A stretch of DNA of 20,916 nt from a virus, in the IMG/VR virus record IMGVR_UViG_3300037488_001720, positions 1 through 20,916 of that record. One strand, given 5' to 3'. Positions 717 through 20,916 of the stretch are shown piece by piece. Each line of letters starts with the position of its first letter. Position 1 is the stretch's first letter. The position numbers and the translations under genes were made by a program. Below the pieces are notes generated by a model. It ran no database searches, was not told where the DNA came from, and saw only the letters and a list, made by a program, of their open reading frames with translations.

Positions 717-2113
717 GCTGCGGCTCCGTAGGGTTGTATGATTTGATCTAATTCATCCACTCTGGACCATATGTCCTTGATGACTTGATACATTTTAACG
801 GGTTTAAATGTCAAGTTCAACATTGTTATAACAATAATGTTGTTATTAATTGGTTCTTTAATGTTCTCATTGGAAAAGTTCCCTTCAAGTACCAGTATCT
901 TAACATTTGGGGTTTCCTGCTGCTTTTCCCAGACTTGGTGCATCAACTCTGACGCACACCATTCCATTGCTTTTCCCTTTTTGATGATATTACCTTCCGC
1001 ATCCTTTATTGGTGGTTTATAACACTCATCAATAATGTCAATAAACCCTAATTTAGTTGCGTAATTTCTTGTGAACGTAAACCTATGACCATCCCATGAG
1101 CGGGTAGTGTACCCTGCTGCTTTCCACGCTTTATGATTGACTTCGAACCGTAACGTTGGCATGGATTGATCGGGGTTGCTTTTTTCATCAAATTGATAGA
1201 ACATACTGAGGAAGATCGCTAAATCTTCGACTGTCATTCGACCTCGGTCATGGGGTAATTGAACATACCCACATGGTAATAATTTTTTGGCTATTTTACG
1301 CCAAGCGGGTAAATCATCTGCTGTAATACATTTGATTGACCCATTATTATTCATCTTCTTTAATTTTTCAACTTTGGTCTCATCAACAATTTCATTAGGG
1401 TTATTATCAATGAGTTGTTCTAACTCAATACCCATCATGGTGGTAGTGTTTACGGCTGCTTCACCTCGGGGTAGTTTCGCTGGAACACCCATGTTTAGAA
1501 CGGTGCCGTCCTCCGCAATGATGCTGCTCGTACCTTTAATTTCGACTAATTCAACGTCCAAATTACCACTTGCTAGGTCGTTTTTTAACCATTTGTCGAA
1601 CTTATCACATAATTTATTGTATTCTTCGTCTTTCCATGATGTTCGTTCGAGTATTAGGTAGCCGTGGACCCCGTTGCCGTTGGTACTGACTTCGTAGTAG
1701 AGGTTTGGGAACCACCTCTCTTTGAGCGATTCTGCGTAGGCAAGAGCCGCTTTTAAAGTACCACAATGATGACAGTCAATGTCTATGAGGAGGAATGTTT
1801 CTACTTTTTGTAATCCAGAGCGGATATAACGACCGTATTTACCTACCAACCAACTGTTGGCGGTAAAGTAGAGTGTTTTGGTTGCGTTTTGGTGGTCGTT
1901 TATTAGGTATTGGGGGATGGTGCGGGGTCTGTCGTACCCGTAGATTTTTTGTGAATTGACAGTTTTTTTATAAAATTGGGTTAAATTGACTTTAAAGTTG
2001 ATGTGTGCGGGGTGATCATTTTCCCCGTCTAGTAACTCACGAAAGTCTGTTGTTTTTTGACCCCAGATGTGTGGGTGTGTGAGTTCTTGAAAGCGTTTTA
2101 ATGTGTTATTCAA
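713..2113 (-). CDS. Archaeo-eukaryotic primase (AEP)-type primase/polymerase
   Basis: The 466-residue protein shows the three AEP-superfamily catalytic motifs in order. The metal-binding hhhDhD motif is LLIDID (D111, D113). The nucleotide-binding sxH motif is STNGNGVH (H150). An acidic third motif on a beta strand is DVELVEIKG (D186, E188, E191). These enzymes make primers, or prime and extend, at phage and plasmid origins. The C-terminal half (about 250-466) is not recognised; no helicase Walker motif is visible, so a separate helicase would be needed. The only plausible start is TTG at 2113: the frame is closed by TGA 11 codons upstream, and there is no Shine-Dalgarno sequence. That start codon lies inside a predicted leader hairpin arm. 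The neighbouring DNA is repeat-rich and origin-like. Confidence 0.85.
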   Translation of the reverse strand: MNNTLKRFQELTHPHIWGQKTTDFRELLDGENDHPAHINFKVNLTQFYKKTVNSQKIYGYDRPRTIPQYLINDHQNATKTLYFTANSWLVGKYGRYIRSGLQKVETFLLIDIDCHHCGTLKAALAYAESLKERWFPNLYYEVSTNGNGVHGYLILERTSWKDEEYNKLCDKFDKWLKNDLASGNLDVELVEIKGTSSIIAEDGTVLNMGVPAKLPRGEAAVNTTTMMGIELEQLIDNNPNEIVDETKVEKLKKMNNNGSIKCITADDLPAWRKIAKKLLPCGYVQLPHDRGRMTVEDLAIFLSMFYQFDEKSNPDQSMPTLRFEVNHKAWKAAGYTTRSWDGHRFTFTRNYATKLGFIDIIDECYKPPIKDAEGNIIKKGKAMEWCASELMHQVWEKQQETPNVKILVLEGNFSNENIKEPINNNIIVITMLNLTFKPVKMYQVIKDIWSRVDELDQIIQPYGAAA

Positions 2114-2215
2114 AATAAAAAGACCCGAGAAATGGGTGTGTTGTCAAGACATACCGTTCTCGGGTCTTCTTCTCGGTCTTATTTTGATTTCACACCCAAC
2201 GGTAATGTCTTGACA
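2111..2215 (-). promoter_or_regulatory. Structured leader with interleaved inverted repeats and terminator-like hairpin (candidate attenuator)
   Basis: Read on the minus strand, segment x (2215-2198) complements x' (2158-2142), 17 of 18 positions with one bulged base. Segment y (2197-2191, GGGTGTG) complements y' (2140-2134). Segment A' (2168-2157, AAGACCCGAGAA) complements A (2131-2120) perfectly over 12 bp. A further arm (2186-2171) complements 2111-2130 imperfectly and includes the TTG start codon. The order x, y, A', x', y', A means x:x' and A':A interleave, as in a pseudoknot or two exclusive folds. The A':A hairpin is followed by TTTTTATTTT, the form of a Rho-independent terminator, ending at the primase start. 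Control of primase expression is inferred. Confidence 0.6.
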
Positions 2216-2220
2216 TCAAT

Positions 2221-2249
2221 ATAATAGTAGTAATCATGATGTGATTCAA
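2221..2249 (-). promoter_or_regulatory. Candidate primase promoter, TTGAAT-17-TATTAT
   Basis: On the minus strand, TTGAAT (2249-2244, 4/6 to the sigma70 -35) is followed after exactly 17 bases by TATTAT (2226-2221, 5/6 to the -10). Initiation about seven bases downstream would fall near 2214, precisely where the first arm of the structured leader begins. That coincidence makes the promoter more credible than its match score alone. The region is AT-rich, so a chance match is possible. Confidence 0.5.
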
Positions 2250-2283: not shown

Positions 2284-2329
2284 AATTGTAAATTGTATCG
2301 TGAACCGACCCGTCTTACAATTTACAATT
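2284..2329. repeat. Perfect 14-bp inverted repeat in primase upstream region
   Basis: AATTGTAAATTGTA (2284-2297) is repeated in perfect inverse orientation at 2316-2329 around an 18-base spacer. It lies in a 271-bp non-coding stretch (2114-2384) beside the primase gene. That stretch also carries a tandem AAAATATTTT block (about 2262-2282), a GAACAT/ATGTTC pair (2338-2343, 2354-2359) and the leader repeats. The AT-richness and density of inverted repeats next to a primase suggest a replication origin or multi-operator region. The arm itself contains ATTGTA as a direct repeat. Confidence 0.7.
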
Positions 2330-2365
2330 GCCACCCAGAACATACATTTTACAATGTTCGGTGTT

Positions 2366-2384
2366 TTATTGATAACATCAATAA
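2366..2384. repeat. 7-bp inverted repeat at the 3' end of the helix-turn-helix gene
   Basis: TTATTGA (2366-2372) and TCAATAA (2378-2384) form a perfect 7-bp stem with a 5-base loop, directly after the stop codon of the gene ending at 2385. It is followed by A residues rather than T on the minus strand. It is therefore a poor intrinsic terminator and could equally be a protein-binding site. Confidence 0.4.
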
Positions 2385-2802: not shown

Positions 2803-3324
2803 ATGGATTATTCAAGATTATCAGACTCTTATAGAACAGGACACGAACTCATTGAATTCAATTCGGATCTCAATAAGTTTCTGCATGAGAATTGTACGAA
2901 AGAAATGAGTGTTATGGACGTAGACTGTATCACCTATAAGCGGTCGAAGAGACGCTTAAGATTTATTGAGAGTAAGCATGTATCCGAAGGATTTACAGGG
3001 TACGGTCAACCTGAGCTTCTCCAGTTACTAGCCAAAGCCGCTACCGTTTTTAATTATCTATTTAGCATATTCCAACAGCCGGGTGGTTTCGGTCGACTGG
3101 AAGCGTTTTTACCCCCGTCCATTTTGGGTTGTCTTGGCTCATTGGGTGCGAGGTGGGACGTGGTAATTATTTGGGGTAATGCACCTTTTGACGAGGTTAT
3201 GGTGCATGATTTAGTTGGTAAGCATACCTATCATTTGAATAAGGAGCAACTCATAAGTTACTTAGAATTCCGTAGTGAGTTGGAGGAATTAGAATGTCAA
3301 GAGCCATTGATCGAAGCCAGTTGA
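2803..3324 (+). CDS. Putative PD-(D/E)xK-fold nuclease-like protein, 173 aa
   Basis: Residues 35-58 read MSVMDVDCITYKRSK...FIESKH. Candidate D39/D41 precede E56-S57-K58 on a following hydrophobic strand, the signature layout of PD-(D/E)xK nucleases (D, then ExK about 15 residues later). Q69 follows in a helix, as in several families of this fold. The family includes Holliday-junction resolvases, recombination exonucleases and repair nucleases; I cannot choose between them. The C-terminal part (about 115-173) has a strand-rich segment (WDVVIIWGN) and an acidic tail. The start has GGAGG three bases upstream, a short spacing. It overlaps the next gene by 31 bp and forms a short plus-strand operon with it, divergent from the helix-turn-helix gene. 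Confidence 0.7.
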   Translation: MDYSRLSDSYRTGHELIEFNSDLNKFLHENCTKEMSVMDVDCITYKRSKRRLRFIESKHVSEGFTGYGQPELLQLLAKAATVFNYLFSIFQQPGGFGRLEAFLPPSILGCLGSLGARWDVVIIWGNAPFDEVMVHDLVGKHTYHLNKEQLISYLEFRSELEELECQEPLIEAS

Positions 3325-3539
3325 AAAAGTTAGTGTGTTGGGTCGACCCCAAACTACATCGTCATTTAAAAAAGTTTGCTTTCCATAATGATCGTTCGAT
3401 GCAATCGGTTATCAATGCGGCTATCGCACGTTACACGAGTTATGGCGAGGTTAACTTGGTGTTACAGGCATTCCCTCGTCCATTGCCTCCGTTGCAACCG
3501 GACACGATTGTGGGGTATCCAGAGGTGACGCAACTGTAG
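3294..3539 (+). CDS. Ribbon-helix-helix (CopG/Arc-like) DNA-binding protein, 81 aa
   Basis: Residues 11-48 match the ribbon-helix-helix plan. A short strand (KKLVCWVD) is followed by helix A (PKLHRHLKKFAFHN), a polar turn (DRSM) and helix B (SVINAAIARYTSY). Such proteins dimerise and insert the paired strand into the DNA major groove, usually as repressors. A strong GGAGG lies seven bases before the ATG, inside the preceding gene, supporting this start. The tail after residue 50 is proline-rich (FPRPLPPLQP). Its last 89 bp overlap the convergent methyltransferase gene. Likely targets are the local operators, such as the palindrome at 2774-2788, by inference. Confidence 0.75.
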   Translation: MSRAIDRSQLKKLVCWVDPKLHRHLKKFAFHNDRSMQSVINAAIARYTSYGEVNLVLQAFPRPLPPLQPDTIVGYPEVTQL

Positions 3540-4605
3540 GTTTTTGAGTCCAGTGGTCAATACGCTCCTGAGCCATGAGTAGGTAATCATCACGGGAATC
3601 TATTCCCGTGATGTGCGACCACCCTGCTAACGCGGCTCCAATGATTTCAGACCCAGCACCACAATAGGGAACTAATAATTGGTTCTCTTCGGGTTGTCTA
3701 ATGAGCGTTGCCAAGTAGGAACAGAGTTTAATGGGTTTTAACGTGGGGTGTTTGTTCACCGTAGCATGACAACCCGCTTTACGCTCACTCGTGGACGTTT
3801 TTGGGACGTAATAGTACCGGATTGGTAATTCTTCCGCAATGTTCTCATCAATAATCACATTGCTCGGGTAACGACCCACGTAGGTAGCACCCGTATACGT
3901 TCCACCCGGTGTCAACATTCCACCACCCGTGGGTCTATCGTAGGAACACGTTTCGGTAGTTCGAGTTGTAGAATTGAACGTGCGTTCTTCCGTCCCGATA
4001 CGGGTCTCATCCACGTTTAACCCCCCACAACCCCATTTCTCAGCGTTTAGAACGAAGTTCCCGTCTAACGGTTTTTGTGCTAATATAATGGGTTCGAAAG
4101 CGGGTTTTAATTGTGTATTATACCCGTTAAACTCCGGTAGTTTCTTACCGATATTCAATCCTTTCGGGAAACCGGACCCGTACAACCAAATTAGCGTGGT
4201 TCGGATTTCCCATCCAGCGTCTTCGATATTGACGGTTAGGCGGTGAACAGTGCGGGGACTACCGAACATGAGCATGTAGCCACCCGGTCTCGTGACGCGG
4301 AGGAGTTCCTGAAACACTTTTATACTCGGTAAATCGTAGTCCCATTTATGATTATTAAAACTCAAACCATAGGGTGGGTCGCTGAATATTCCCGTGTACA
4401 CATTATCTTGAAACTTGGCTAGTGCGTTGAGTACATCATCACAAATTAAATTAACCATTGGTTTTCCCTCTATTGTTTGAGTTTCATCTTTAATGATTTT
4501 GAAGTAGCGACTTGGTCCGCCTTTATCGTTAGGACGACCAGATTCGATTCCCAGTGAACCATCAAAAAATCCAGTCCCTTTTTCAAATGCGTTATGGTGT
4601 ACCAT
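3451..4605 (-). CDS. DNA methyltransferase, N4/N6 type, with rearranged N-terminus
   Basis: Amino-methyltransferase motifs are present in motif IV-before-I order. A DPPYG catalytic motif sits near the N-terminus, HPTLKP lies in the C-terminal half, and VPYCGAGSE (the AdoMet-binding DPFxGxGT equivalent, with V for D) follows. It probably methylates phage DNA against host restriction. The start is ambiguous. The open frame begins at TTG 4677 without a Shine-Dalgarno. ATG 4605 has AGAGGA close upstream; ATG 4458 has GAGGG seven bases upstream and is the usual family start, with DPPY about 27 residues in. The 49 residues between them contain GRPNDKGGPSRYF, a stretch that in relatives precedes the YFYCAK-like strand and is absent there here (EELPIRYYYVPK). 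The extra region carries a 57-60-bp direct repeat. Confidence 0.85.
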   Translation of the reverse strand: MVHHNAFEKGTGFFDGSLGIESGRPNDKGGPSRYFKIIKDETQTIEGKPMVNLICDDVLNALAKFQDNVYTGIFSDPPYGLSFNNHKWDYDLPSIKVFQELLRVTRPGGYMLMFGSPRTVHRLTVNIEDAGWEIRTTLIWLYGSGFPKGLNIGKKLPEFNGYNTQLKPAFEPIILAQKPLDGNFVLNAEKWGCGGLNVDETRIGTEERTFNSTTRTTETCSYDRPTGGGMLTPGGTYTGATYVGRYPSNVIIDENIAEELPIRYYYVPKTSTSERKAGCHATVNKHPTLKPIKLCSYLATLIRQPEENQLLVPYCGAGSEIIGAALAGWSHITGIDSRDDYLLMAQERIDHWTQKPTVASPLDTPQSCPVATEAMDEGMPVTPS

Positions 4606-4659
4606 TTCTTCCTCTATTCTATTTTGAGTATTTTTAATTATTTGGAAGTAGCGGCTTGG
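4456..4659 (-). repeat. Imperfect 57-60-bp direct repeat spanning the two methyltransferase genes' junction
   Basis: Unit 1 (4659-4603) and unit 2 (4515-4456), read on the minus strand, share CCAAG, CGCTACTTC, ATTAAA, ACTCAAA and TAGA blocks in the same order, and both end in a purine-rich Shine-Dalgarno and ATGGT. In one frame both encode PSRYF(Q/K)IIK. In another, unit 1 encodes the last residues of the Dam-like protein (SKPLLPNN, stop) and unit 2 a decayed counterpart (TKSLLQNH, stop). The junction between the two genes therefore looks duplicated. Confidence 0.7.
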
Positions 4660-5485
4660 ACATGTATAATCGTTCAATTGCCGTGGGTTTAATTGCCTCC
4701 GATGATGTATGTTTAATCACGGTCTTATCACTCGTGTACCACCCCTCGTATAATGCGTCGTACGTGTCATGTGCGTAACTTTGGACGATCACGTTCCCAA
4801 CTAGTCCACGAACCACTGACGCTAATTGTGCGTGATCCTGCGTGGTGAATTCGTCATCGTACCCCGCACCGTTTCTAGTACGGGTATCCAGTGGGTAGGG
4901 GGGATCACAATAATAGGTGGTGGTGGGGGAATCGTACTTGGGTAAGAGTTCCAGAGCATTACCGTGGATGATTTCAATGTTTTTTAATTTTTCATGATAA
5001 GCGTCTAGAATGTCATTATGCCGTGACCATTGACTTACTTTGGCTTTTAACCCGTCTTTTAAAACTCGTTTATCATCAGAGAAACCAGCAGAGGGTAACC
5101 CCCCTCGACTCATGGATAAAACACAATAAGTTAAACACGCTTGTTGTAAGTGTGGGTACGTGGGAAACTCGGGTGCTAGGTACCAGCGTTTGAGTTGTTC
5201 GTAGGTGGTGCGTTCGTAATCCCATCGAGAGATTTCGGCGGTGAGCCAGTGGTGTTCGTGTTTGATGCACCCCAATAATGTTGTAAGACGTTCATTACTG
5301 TCAATGAGGACGTGTCGCTGGACTTTAAAAGGGAGGTTTGTACTGATTGTTCCAGTGCCTGCGAAAGCGTCAATAAAGATATCGGTCTTGGGGAAGTGTT
5401 CGTAAATCCAAGAGCGTTGTTTATACTTTGACCCGTAATAGGGGAAGAGGGGTCCAATTTTAGGGGGTTCATCATGATATCGCAT
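4634..5485 (-). CDS. Dam-like D12-class N6-adenine DNA methyltransferase
   Basis: The 283-residue protein has the D12-class hallmarks. An N-terminal FPYYGSK (14-20) is followed by the AdoMet-binding motif FIDAFAGTGT (37-46), the acidic end of the next strand (VLIDSN, D62) and the catalytic YYCDPPY (191-197). The C-terminal region SSEAIKPTAIERLYMS matches the end of this family. The alpha-group motif order (I before IV) distinguishes it from the second enzyme downstream. The likely role is adenine methylation of phage DNA for evasion of restriction or for regulation. The target site cannot be read from sequence. The ATG at 5485 lacks a clear Shine-Dalgarno. Its 3' end overlaps the upstream extension of the next methyltransferase frame. 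Confidence 0.92.
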   Translation of the reverse strand: MRYHDEPPKIGPLFPYYGSKYKQRSWIYEHFPKTDIFIDAFAGTGTISTNLPFKVQRHVLIDSNERLTTLLGCIKHEHHWLTAEISRWDYERTTYEQLKRWYLAPEFPTYPHLQQACLTYCVLSMSRGGLPSAGFSDDKRVLKDGLKAKVSQWSRHNDILDAYHEKLKNIEIIHGNALELLPKYDSPTTTYYCDPPYPLDTRTRNGAGYDDEFTTQDHAQLASVVRGLVGNVIVQSYAHDTYDALYEGWYTSDKTVIKHTSSEAIKPTAIERLYMSKPLLPNN

Positions 5486-18820: not shown

Positions 18821-19166
18821 TCGTACCCCCTTCGACCGTTATGGTTCTTGTACGGTCTTGGGGGATCTCAATGCGGATCGCAACCTTCTCTTTGGTTTTC
18901 TCGACTTGAGTTTCTTTGGGGATGAGCGGCAGGTAAATCTCTTTTAAAACTTTAATCGCATCTTTGTCGAATCTTCCCTTAATTTGTTCCATAAACTTGG
19001 CTTTACCGTAGTCGTCCCATACTTCGCTTAAAGCAGCAACTAGGTTGCCTTTTAATTCCTTACCGGTAGCGGGTGGTTTAGATTTTTTAATTAATGCGGT
19101 ACCCGAACTCATCAATTTGAGTTTCTTATGACTGTTGACTATAAAATGTTGTTGCGGTTCGTTCAT
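18813..19166 (-). CDS. Putative terminase small subunit-like protein, 117 aa
   Basis: The position directly before TerL and the helical core (KGNLVAALSEVWDDYGKAKF to KVLKEIYLPLIPKETQ) resemble short small-terminase-like proteins encoded beside TerL in many phages. No clear helix-turn-helix is seen. Its terminal residues (IRIEIPQDRTRTITVEGG) are strand-like. I chose ATG 19166 because it overlaps the stop of the upstream repeat-protein gene as ATGA. AGGAAG lies 12 bases upstream. The frame also opens at GTG 19193. If correct, it recognises the packaging site and loads TerL. Confidence 0.65.
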   Translation of the reverse strand: MNEPQQHFIVNSHKKLKLMSSGTALIKKSKPPATGKELKGNLVAALSEVWDDYGKAKFMEQIKGRFDKDAIKVLKEIYLPLIPKETQVEKTKEKVAIRIEIPQDRTRTITVEGGTSE

Positions 19167-20916
19167 GACGTGATGATACTTCCTAGTAACCACGGTTCTA
19201 ACCGTAGACTACCTGCTAATTGTTTTCTATACCGATCAAACTCTGCGTTACCATAAAAAGTTAGTAACCCAGTTGGGTAAAAACTATAATTAAGTATGAG
19301 TCCAGCCGTCCCACCAACCGTGATGACTACCGAACCAATCACTACCGAGTTGGCTTGTGCATCCCCGTTGAATACTAGGTTACCCGCACCAGTAAAGGGT
19401 ACATGGACTTGATTGACCCCGTCCCCATAATAGAGGATATCTCCGCCACCATAAAAAATGTTGTCCCCTGCTATGGTTGCTCGACCGTAGAATCTTAGGG
19501 TTCCTGACCCGATAGCATTGATGACTCGTTCAAATGTTGATTCACCGTTAAATGTGAGTTTACCAGTGGTGTTAAAATTATAAGTTGGGGTAATGGTCGC
19601 ATCACCCGTGTACGTGAGCGTGCCGCTACCGTCATGGTACTTGTGAGTCCCGTAAGTTGCTTCCCCACTGAACGTTATCGTGCCGGTGCTAGTGTGGTCG
19701 TTGTTTAAATAGAGTCCTGCGTTACCCGTGAATAGGATGCTACCATTACTGTCGAGTTGGTAGATGACGTAAGAACCACTGAATGTGATAACGCCAGAAC
19801 CTACCCCGTGCTGGACGTAGGACGCTTCACAATCACCGTTAAAGCGTAGTTTTCCTACGGTTGAGATAAACTCTTTATGGTTCGGTGCGTCGGTTTGTGC
19901 GACACCCCAGTAAGTTATTGAACCAGTCCCGCTTGTGATGTAGGTTGCGGCTACTTCGGCTTCCCCGCTGAGTGTAATACCACCAGTTGGGATGCTAATG
20001 ATCTGGACGTTCAATTCACTCACACCCGTGTAAGCAATATTACCATTACCCACGTAACCATAAGTTTGTTGTGCAATAGATTCGCCACTGAGAGTGATAC
20101 CACCCGTGGGATCATAATATAATTGAATTGTGGTGAGACTGGAACCGCTTACAATTATTTCAATTGAACGATCATAATTGTATTGAATGATGATTTCGGA
20201 TTCACCACTAATAATGATCCCACCCGTGGGGTCATACGTTAGGTTGATTGAGTATACGTTAGTACTTGAACCAGTGAATAGTAAATTACCATTACCATAA
20301 AAATTAAAACCGTAATAACATAATGATTCACCGCTAATGGTAATGGTGGTGTTTGTATCGTACCAGAGTATTATAATTACACCACTGGAACCCTCAATAA
20401 TTAAGCCACCCGTTGGGTCATAAGTGTAATTTGTCCCACCCGTGTGGGTGCAAGTTGCGGCTCCACTGAATACTAGGATTCCTGATCCAATAAACTCAGT
20501 AGTGTAAGTTGCAGCACCATTAAATGTGATATTACCGTAAGATTGATAAGTGATAACTATTACGGCAATGATTTCCCCACTGATAACGATACCACCCGTC
20601 ATGGTGTACGTGTAAGCATCACCCATCTGATAAGTTGCTTCACCACTGATAATAATGATGCAATCACCGTCCACGTTGTATTGGATGGTTAGTTCGTGAG
20701 TTGGGTCTATCGTGATCCCACCACTAACATCATACGGGATATTTAATTGTGTCAGTGCTTCACCACTGAGTATGATCCCACCCTCGGGATCGTAATTGTA
20801 TTGTGGTATGGGGTCAGTTTCCCCACTGATAACGATACCACCCGTCATGGTGTACGTGTAAGCATCACCCATCTGATAAGTTGCTTCACCACTGATAATA
20901 ATGATGCAATCACCGT
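19163..20916 (-). CDS. Beta-repeat fibre-like protein, 5' end outside window
   Basis: The product is made of about 27 imperfect repeats of roughly 17-27 residues built on a core such as GGIVISGEA, GKLTFNGES or GTLTYTGDA. The core is a glycine-led strand followed by a small-residue turn. This pattern suggests a beta-solenoid or stacked-strand fibre. The frame remains open through 20916; the ATG at 20872 is internal, because codons before it continue the repeat (SGEATYQ), so the gene is incomplete. There is no signal peptide in view. The last residues (RLEPWLLGSIITS) leave the pattern. Stop and the next start overlap as ATGA, coupling it to the terminase genes, an odd place for a fibre. A tail fibre or capsid spike is inferred. 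Confidence 0.8.
   Translation of the reverse strand, partial: GDCIIIISGEATYQMGDAYTYTMTGGIVISGETDPIPQYNYDPEGGIILSGEALTQLNIPYDVSGGITIDPTHELTIQYNVDGDCIIIISGEATYQMGDAYTYTMTGGIVISGEIIAVIVITYQSYGNITFNGAATYTTEFIGSGILVFSGAATCTHTGGTNYTYDPTGGLIIEGSSGVIIILWYDTNTTITISGESLCYYGFNFYGNGNLLFTGSSTNVYSINLTYDPTGGIIISGESEIIIQYNYDRSIEIIVSGSSLTTIQLYYDPTGGITLSGESIAQQTYGYVGNGNIAYTGVSELNVQIISIPTGGITLSGEAEVAATYITSGTGSITYWGVAQTDAPNHKEFISTVGKLRFNGDCEASYVQHGVGSGVITFSGSYVIYQLDSNGSILFTGNAGLYLNNDHTSTGTITFSGEATYGTHKYHDGSGTLTYTGDATITPTYNFNTTGKLTFNGESTFERVINAIGSGTLRFYGRATIAGDNIFYGGGDILYYGDGVNQVHVPFTGAGNLVFNGDAQANSVVIGSVVITVGGTAGLILNYSFYPTGLLTFYGNAEFDRYRKQLAGSLRLEPWLLGSIITS
20572..20916. repeat. Exact 99-bp direct repeat, 246 bp apart, reaching the window edge
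   Basis: Positions 20572-20670 and 20818-20916 are identical over all 99 bases; the base before each copy differs (A and G). The 246-bp offset equals 82 codons, so the repeat is in frame within the beta-repeat gene and both copies encode the same segment (SGEATYQMGDAYTYTMTGGI). Other repeats in this gene are much more diverged. Confidence 0.97.

Follow-up and report, generated by a model that had tools for sequence, protein, structure and literature searches.

This locus raises the question of whether the DNA directly ahead of a primase-like gene holds an RNA switch that sets the level of the gene product, an origin of replication, or an ordinary intergenic signal. The window, i.e., the whole stretch analysed, comprises the full 20,916 bases of IMG/VR virus record IMGVR_UViG_3300037488_001720. 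Terminase, portal, capsid and tail-type genes form a block on its minus strand; two DNA methyltransferases (3451–5485) are also encoded, and the gene for a 466-aa primase-like protein lies at the left end. No end repeats were found when the ends of the record were checked. The host of the phage is probably a planctomycete. A long protein of degenerate repeats (TGGIxxSGEA...) is encoded beside the small terminase (19163–20914, minus strand) and runs off the end of the record. An earlier note on this DNA had described a predicted promoter followed by interleaved complementary segments ahead of the gene, and had proposed control of replication initiation by RNA folding or an origin structure. The answer we favour, at slightly less than an even chance, is that the leader (2215–2113) is a conditional transcription terminator, similar to the pT181 and pIP501 attenuators, that sets the primase level.

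The leader (2215–2110, minus strand) contains complementary segments in the order x-y-z-A'-x'-y'-A, followed by a T-run (Table 1). This is the order x, y, A', x', y', A of the earlier note with z added between y and A'. All pairs in the leader cross, because the partners occur in the same order. Stem S1 (x:x') has 17 pairs and one bulged T (duplex −24.6 kcal/mol), and no other copies of x were found within the window; y:y' has seven pairs (−13.9 kcal/mol). Stem S2 (A':A) has 12 perfect pairs (−23.4 kcal/mol) enclosing a 25-nt loop and ends 7 nt from the TTG start, so that the hairpin and T-run are placed as the earlier note had them. The interleaving of S1 with S2 needed only the correction that A' and x' overlap by two bases (2157–2158), and the additional arm thought to pair with the start codon region proved to be z, whose partner covers 2131–2110 and includes TTATTTTGA, pairing with TCAAAATAA over the start codon (z:z' duplex −18.5 kcal/mol). 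In a modelled alternative pairing of y, its GGGT would lengthen S1 by pairing with the ACCC of A', so that the terminator arm is trapped. The TTG at 2113 is the sole possible ATG, GTG or TTG start of the 466-aa protein: on the upstream side the frame closes at about 2146, and downstream no other candidate comes before codon 89. The homologous domain starts at about residue 5–8. The predicted TTGAAT-17-TATTAT promoter was the best sense site within 200 bases upstream (p = 0.03 versus shuffles), which agrees with its earlier identification. The resemblance of x:x' to 80-bp terminal repeats suggested a MITE or transposon end, which we rejected: the partners of y and z fall outside such an element, and there was no sign of a target-site duplication. 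Two short frames also lie on the minus strand here: one of eight codons (MSRHYRWV, 2216–2190) lies at the predicted 5' end of the transcript and coincides with x plus y, and one of 54 aa (2343–2179) includes four Tyr codons in a row and stops within z.

Table 1. Features of the primase-like gene, its leader and the region upstream, with positions in the window.
Feature	Positions	Strand	Sequence or remark
x, 5' arm of stem S1; proposed early stem or antiterminator	2198–2215	−	TGTCAAGACATTACCGTT
y	2191–2197	−	GGGTGTG; partner y'
z, partial duplicate of A' extended by TCAAAATAA	2170–2187	−	can pair with A, T-run and start codon
A', 5' arm of terminator-like stem S2	2157–2168	−	AAGACCCGAGAA
x', 3' arm of S1	2142–2158	−	AACGGTATGTCTTGACA
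y'	2134–2140	−	CACACCC
A, 3' arm of terminator-like hairpin S2	2120–2131	−	TTCTCGGGTCTT
U-tract after S2, into the TTG start	2112–2121	−	TTTTTATTTT; sense tail score 4.8, control mean 0.8
Predicted sigma-70-like promoter	2221–2249	−	TTGAAT-17-TATTAT; predicted start of transcription about 2216–2214
Weak candidate counter-transcript promoter	2087–2116	+	TTGAAA-18-CAAAAT; p = 0.06
Same hairpin read antisense, with T-rich tail; possible counter-transcript terminator	2117–2187	+	TTCTTCTC..CTTATTTTG; terminator-like site 2160–2176; antisense tail 2.8
AEP-primase-like protein, 466 aa	713–2113	−	IDID, STNGNGVHGY and VEIKG motifs; C-terminal ...GAAA
Small protein, 92 aa, HTH_17/MerR-like pattern	2385–2663	−	pattern judged by eye
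Further inverted repeats between HTH-like gene and leader	2284–2384		14-bp AATTGTAAATTGTA/TACAATTTACAATT; TTATTGAT-GTT-ATCAATAA

Such interleaving had been called unlikely by chance, and the tests agreed. None of 200 shuffles gave an RNA as stable as the leader (z = −5.0), none of 300 matched its crossing stems, and the leader was the highest-scoring site for crossing arms in the whole window, exceeding all 4000 Markov sequences. Folding of the minus-strand leader, as the earlier note had proposed, gave this strong stability together with two near-equal nested states. In nested folding, x:x' with GGGT:ACCC was the MFE structure from the completion of x' until the T-run, and the A':A state became the minimum only once the start region was included. 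At the T-run, S1 reached −33.5 kcal/mol and S2 −31.0 to −33.9 kcal/mol, a gap (about 0.4–2.5) that is smaller than the error of the energy model. The leader is thus bistable in the folding model, with x:x' forming first and two near-equal states thereafter; an early stem followed by a terminator is the order expected of an attenuator with an early-forming antiterminator. As S1 and S2 abut, sharing two bases, with a 10-nt bridge to the 3' arm of S2, a pseudoknot containing both is also conceivable.

The protein downstream was called a primase in the earlier note, which was right in kind, the family assignment being likely and not proven. For the 466-aa protein, sequence searches of Pfam, PHROG and PDB returned no match, nor did tblastn in 50,697 phage and 72,556 plasmid records, and single-protein scans of viral and genome contigs returned no relative. 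The DNA pattern of the STNGNGVHGY catalytic motif found relatives only in Planctomycetes (30% identity, E = 4e-43). Family members are about 30–34% identical to the window protein and were present in 10 of the 45 genomes from a single order and in only a few others, by a whole-genome search for which Planctomycetota was the only phylum covered; one further homologue came from another virus contig. The protein likely belongs to a rare family of AEP-primase-like proteins carried by mobile elements of Planctomycetota. D111, D113, H150 and E191 are invariant in eight sequences and fit the AEP motifs hhhDhD, S..GxGxH and the third acidic motif. AlphaFold reached a pLDDT of 35 without an alignment and of 60 with six sequences. 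With the latter, low-confidence model, Foldseek placed Prim-PolC, the LigD polymerase domain and the primase of phage NrS-1 among the first matches, although none of the matches to AEP structures was significant (E no better than 0.09). The invariant residues and the AEP structures among the first matches make an AEP-like primase, rather than one of the DnaG type, likely. No helicase domain was recognised in the protein, and a 25-sequence tree placed the window on a long branch with no supported sister. Most full-length homologues end in -AA (LAA, MAA, FAA, IAA or TAA; GAAA in the window), and a few in AV, RA, TA or SA (window, L007, L009, L015, L016, L017, L018, L022, L024, L025, L034, L059, L061, L065, L072, L073 and L075). 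These termini resemble an ssrA-like ClpXP degron, and it is possible that the primase would be short-lived.

The neighbourhood of the gene is also partly common to the family. BLAST and Pfam gave no significant match for the 92-aa HTH-like protein, whose gene occupies the position of the small DNA-binding genes found 5' of homologous primases. Many homologues have such an HTH or RHH gene, of the RHH type in L022, L024 and L025. An Arc-like ribbon-helix-helix gene (3294–3539, plus strand) adjoins the primase module in the window. Of the inverted repeats between the HTH-like gene and the leader, the 14-bp pair is perfect, with an 18-nt loop; the AT-rich AAAATATTTTGAAAATATTTTT lies in the same interval. 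In two homologous elements, L040 (9363–14537) and L067 (5669–10513), the primase is adjacent to a ParB-like gene and a DNA methyltransferase, an enzyme type that the window encodes as well; close to the edge of L040, an integrase-like gene was recognised by eye.

Alignment of the leader with relatives, which the earlier note had also proposed, yielded no DNA relative, as the 50,697 phage and 72,556 plasmid records contained none beyond short AT-rich matches; comparison of the leaders of protein homologues was informative instead. A strong hairpin was found in 16 of 23 homologue leaders (130 bases before start codons chosen by the analyst; homologues not fully independent) versus 41 of 354 leaders that precede other genes of these regions and served as controls (Fisher p = 1e-9). 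The enrichment persisted against controls with at least 80 intergenic bases (p = 1e-8), and 18 homologue leaders were hairpin-bearing at p = 0.03 or below versus their own shuffles. The hairpin sequences were wholly different between clades, and no shared motif was seen by eye in the loops. The leader hairpin is thus kept in structure, not in sequence, across the family. Close relatives retain the stem despite substitutions. Among L015, L059 and L073, two of ten pairs were changed on both sides (C-G/T-A and A-T/G-C) and the inner pairs were eroded; covariation in this set, too small at n = 3, was not above shuffles. One paired A-T to C-G change was present in the stem of L007 and L010. In L072, the primase start nearly abuts the stop of the HTH gene, and a 10-bp hairpin (AACGACACTC/GAGTGTCGTT) precedes the HTH gene, as if moved to the head of the operon.

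A second crossing case was found in L016, whose protein is 31% identical to that of the window. Its S1 pairs GGGGAACGGA and AAAGCACCG with CGGTGCTTT and TCCGTTTCCC (19 pairs, 10 + 9 with a 7-nt bulge), and its S2 pairs GGACGCCTCGGC with GCTGAGGCGTTC (12 pairs including G-U). One or two nt separate the 5' arm of S2 from the 3' arm of S1, and 12 nt lead on to the 3' arm of S2, which is followed by the U-rich TTTATTTG and the start region. The two stems are again close in energy (S1 −34.4 versus S2 −36.5 kcal/mol). As the two sequences are unrelated, the layout is common by structure only, and the same stem order in a distant homologue gives comparative support to a switch of this form. A crossing score of at least 16, a cut-off set after the window and L016 had been seen, was reached by these two of 27 family leaders and by none of 354 controls (p = 0.005). 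Pairing of the loop to upstream sequence was significant (p of 0.004 or less) in the window, L016 and L030 among 19 leaders tested, and L061, the sister of L016, has a weaker crossing version (p = 0.07).

The tails of the hairpins indicate a direction. The window has tails on both strands, its sense tail being by far the strongest of the family set. An antisense U-tract was present in 65% of family hairpins versus 7% of control hairpins (p = 2e-7), and within the family the antisense tail exceeded the sense tail (p = 1e-4). By this bias, the family hairpins resemble terminators for transcripts leaving the primase gene against its direction, which suggests that counter-transcripts end at these leaders, in the same direction as the antisense regulators of plasmid rep genes. 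Antisense promoters were generally not recognisable in the family leaders. A sense promoter lies 5' of the hairpin in the window, L015, L065 and L073. In L009, L026, L027 and L017, the start is separated from the hairpin by a -10-like box (TATATA or TATAAT), and transcripts of the gene may therefore lack the hairpin there.

The closest parallels to the favoured attenuator are the leaders of pT181 repC and pIP501 repR, in which a terminator-like stem precedes the start codon and is controlled by pre-emptor pairing and an antisense RNA; in pIP501, the gene for a 92-aa HTH repressor, CopR, lies upstream (PMC5703833). The window likewise has a terminator-like stem whose T-tract immediately precedes the initiator start, a segment earlier in the leader that pre-empts the 5' arm of the terminator and forms first in nested folding, a small Cop-like gene upstream, in this case for the 92-aa HTH-like protein, and a hairpin that is also terminator-like for the opposite strand. 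The window differs in that its initiator is AEP-like, belongs to a tailed phage and has no sequence relation to RepC or RepR, that its pre-emption consists mostly of the crossing 17-pair x:x', with only GGGT on the terminator arm, and that a counterpart of the antisense RNA is only predicted (Table 1). The earlier note knew of no described phage primase leader of this form; we also found none in open-access papers, but the plasmid rep-leader attenuators are a close parallel (PMC5703833). In the mechanism that we infer, transcription would begin near 2215, and x would pair with x' once RNA polymerase passes 2142, with the GGGT of y holding the ACCC of A'. From this default state, polymerase would read through into the primase. 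When x is blocked, the A':A stem and U-tract would form and transcription would stop at the start codon, and in transcripts escaping termination the start region would be paired. A plus-strand counter-transcript could occupy x, as could a ribosome or the small DNA-binding protein whose gene lies upstream; S1 and S2 might also be present together in an H-type pseudoknot, blocking initiation. The folding switch proposed earlier thus gains from the bistability of the model and from L016, with the regulation itself inferred and an origin role still a rival. Points against the attenuator are the length of the A':A loop, long for a terminator, the crossing form in only two of 27 leaders, antisense promoters that are generally undetectable, and, in some homologues, the -10-like box after the hairpin.

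The main rival, rather unlikely in our judgement, is a DNA-level role for the stem-loop, as an origin of replication used by the AEP-type primase next to it, with the interleaved repeats forming alternative hairpins on single-stranded DNA. The Sulfolobus plasmid pRN1 provides the model: it encodes an AEP protein and an RHH repressor, and carries an essential stem-loop, conserved in structure and not in sequence, that is the proposed origin (PMC4234260). The window and its family resemble it in the AEP-type (here putatively AEP-like) replication protein, the small DNA-binding gene (RHH for orf56 and in the three homologues named above) and the stem-loop kept only in structure; the whole intergenic stretch 2100–2384 also folds strongly as DNA (z = −6.8), the variable placement of promoters among homologues, with -10-like boxes between hairpin and start in some, fits this rival, and the hairpin of L022 and L024 lies within a 48-nt gap after the RHH gene. 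However, the pRN1 stem-loop (about 100 nt, required in cis) lies downstream of orf904, whereas the window hairpin lies upstream with U-tracts, and both a one-sided U-tract and the sense promoters 5' of the hairpin are features of transcription. A less probable, and unlikely, reading has a counter-transcribed small RNA blocking primase translation; the hairpin would mainly be its terminator, ending sense transcription as well, and x:x' would be part of the structures for sense–antisense recognition and not an antiterminator. Plasmids such as ColE2 and R1 (CopA) control rep translation in this manner, through a small counter-transcript that ends in a stem-loop over the initiator leader. The predicted counter-transcript of the window would do the same, and the antisense U-tracts, the excess of A-C/C-A mismatches (G-U on the other strand) over G-T in family stems, and the position of the hairpin directly 5' of the Shine-Dalgarno sequence in L015, L059 and L073 are consistent with it. 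Unlike in ColE2 and R1, the window has a terminator-like sense stem; antisense promoters are weak or absent in most leaders, the antisense U-tract is matched or exceeded by the sense one in the window and L016, and the crossing S1 stem is left unexplained.

Still less likely is that an ordinary bidirectional terminator separates the 92-aa gene from the primase, combined with dyads for a DNA-binding repressor (TGTCAAGACA twice) and no switch. T-tracts on both strands accord with it, intergenic hairpins are common, and TGTCNNGACA occurs at only these two places in the window. However, the asymmetric ACCGTT and y are repeated too, the crossing layout is common to L016, and a plain terminator at the start of the next gene, 3' of the predicted promoter, would silence the primase gene. 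Very improbable, finally, is ribosome-coupled attenuation, in which translation over x and y, through the 8-codon or the 54-aa frame, decides which stem forms. The frames are present and cover x and y, and although no Rfam model matched the leader at gathering score, there was a weak full-length match to Thr_leader (RF00506; 25.4 bits, cut-off 55, E = 0.008), a model with which the leader has alternative stems and a terminal T-tract in common. This score is far below gathering and mostly reflects the terminator; the gene is not an amino-acid gene, no convincing leader peptide is present, no Shine-Dalgarno sequence and, in L016, no such frame were seen by eye, and the 54-aa frame begins 5' of the predicted promoter.

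A few plasmids are known to attenuate an initiator gene through leader folds that compete. If the attenuator reading is true, the same logic would have arisen with a different initiator, here an AEP-type primase encoded by a tailed phage of a little-studied phylum. A further parallel is a cyanobacterial plasmid, where an abundant antisense RNA lies upstream of a primase-helicase Rep (PMC9978351). The leader hairpin found across the family provides a natural set of variants for testing an RNA switch against an origin role, the latter suggested for pRN1 and some phages. More speculatively, and with a chance that we consider modest, AEP primases of Planctomycetota phages and mobile elements may be under RNA-level control by leaders kept in topology and not in sequence, mostly simple hairpins that end counter-transcripts and in some cases a giant H-type pseudoknot switch at the start codon (S1 of 17–19 pairs abutting S2 of 12). 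Together with a possible C-terminal degron, such leaders would throttle replication initiation by transcription and proteolysis.
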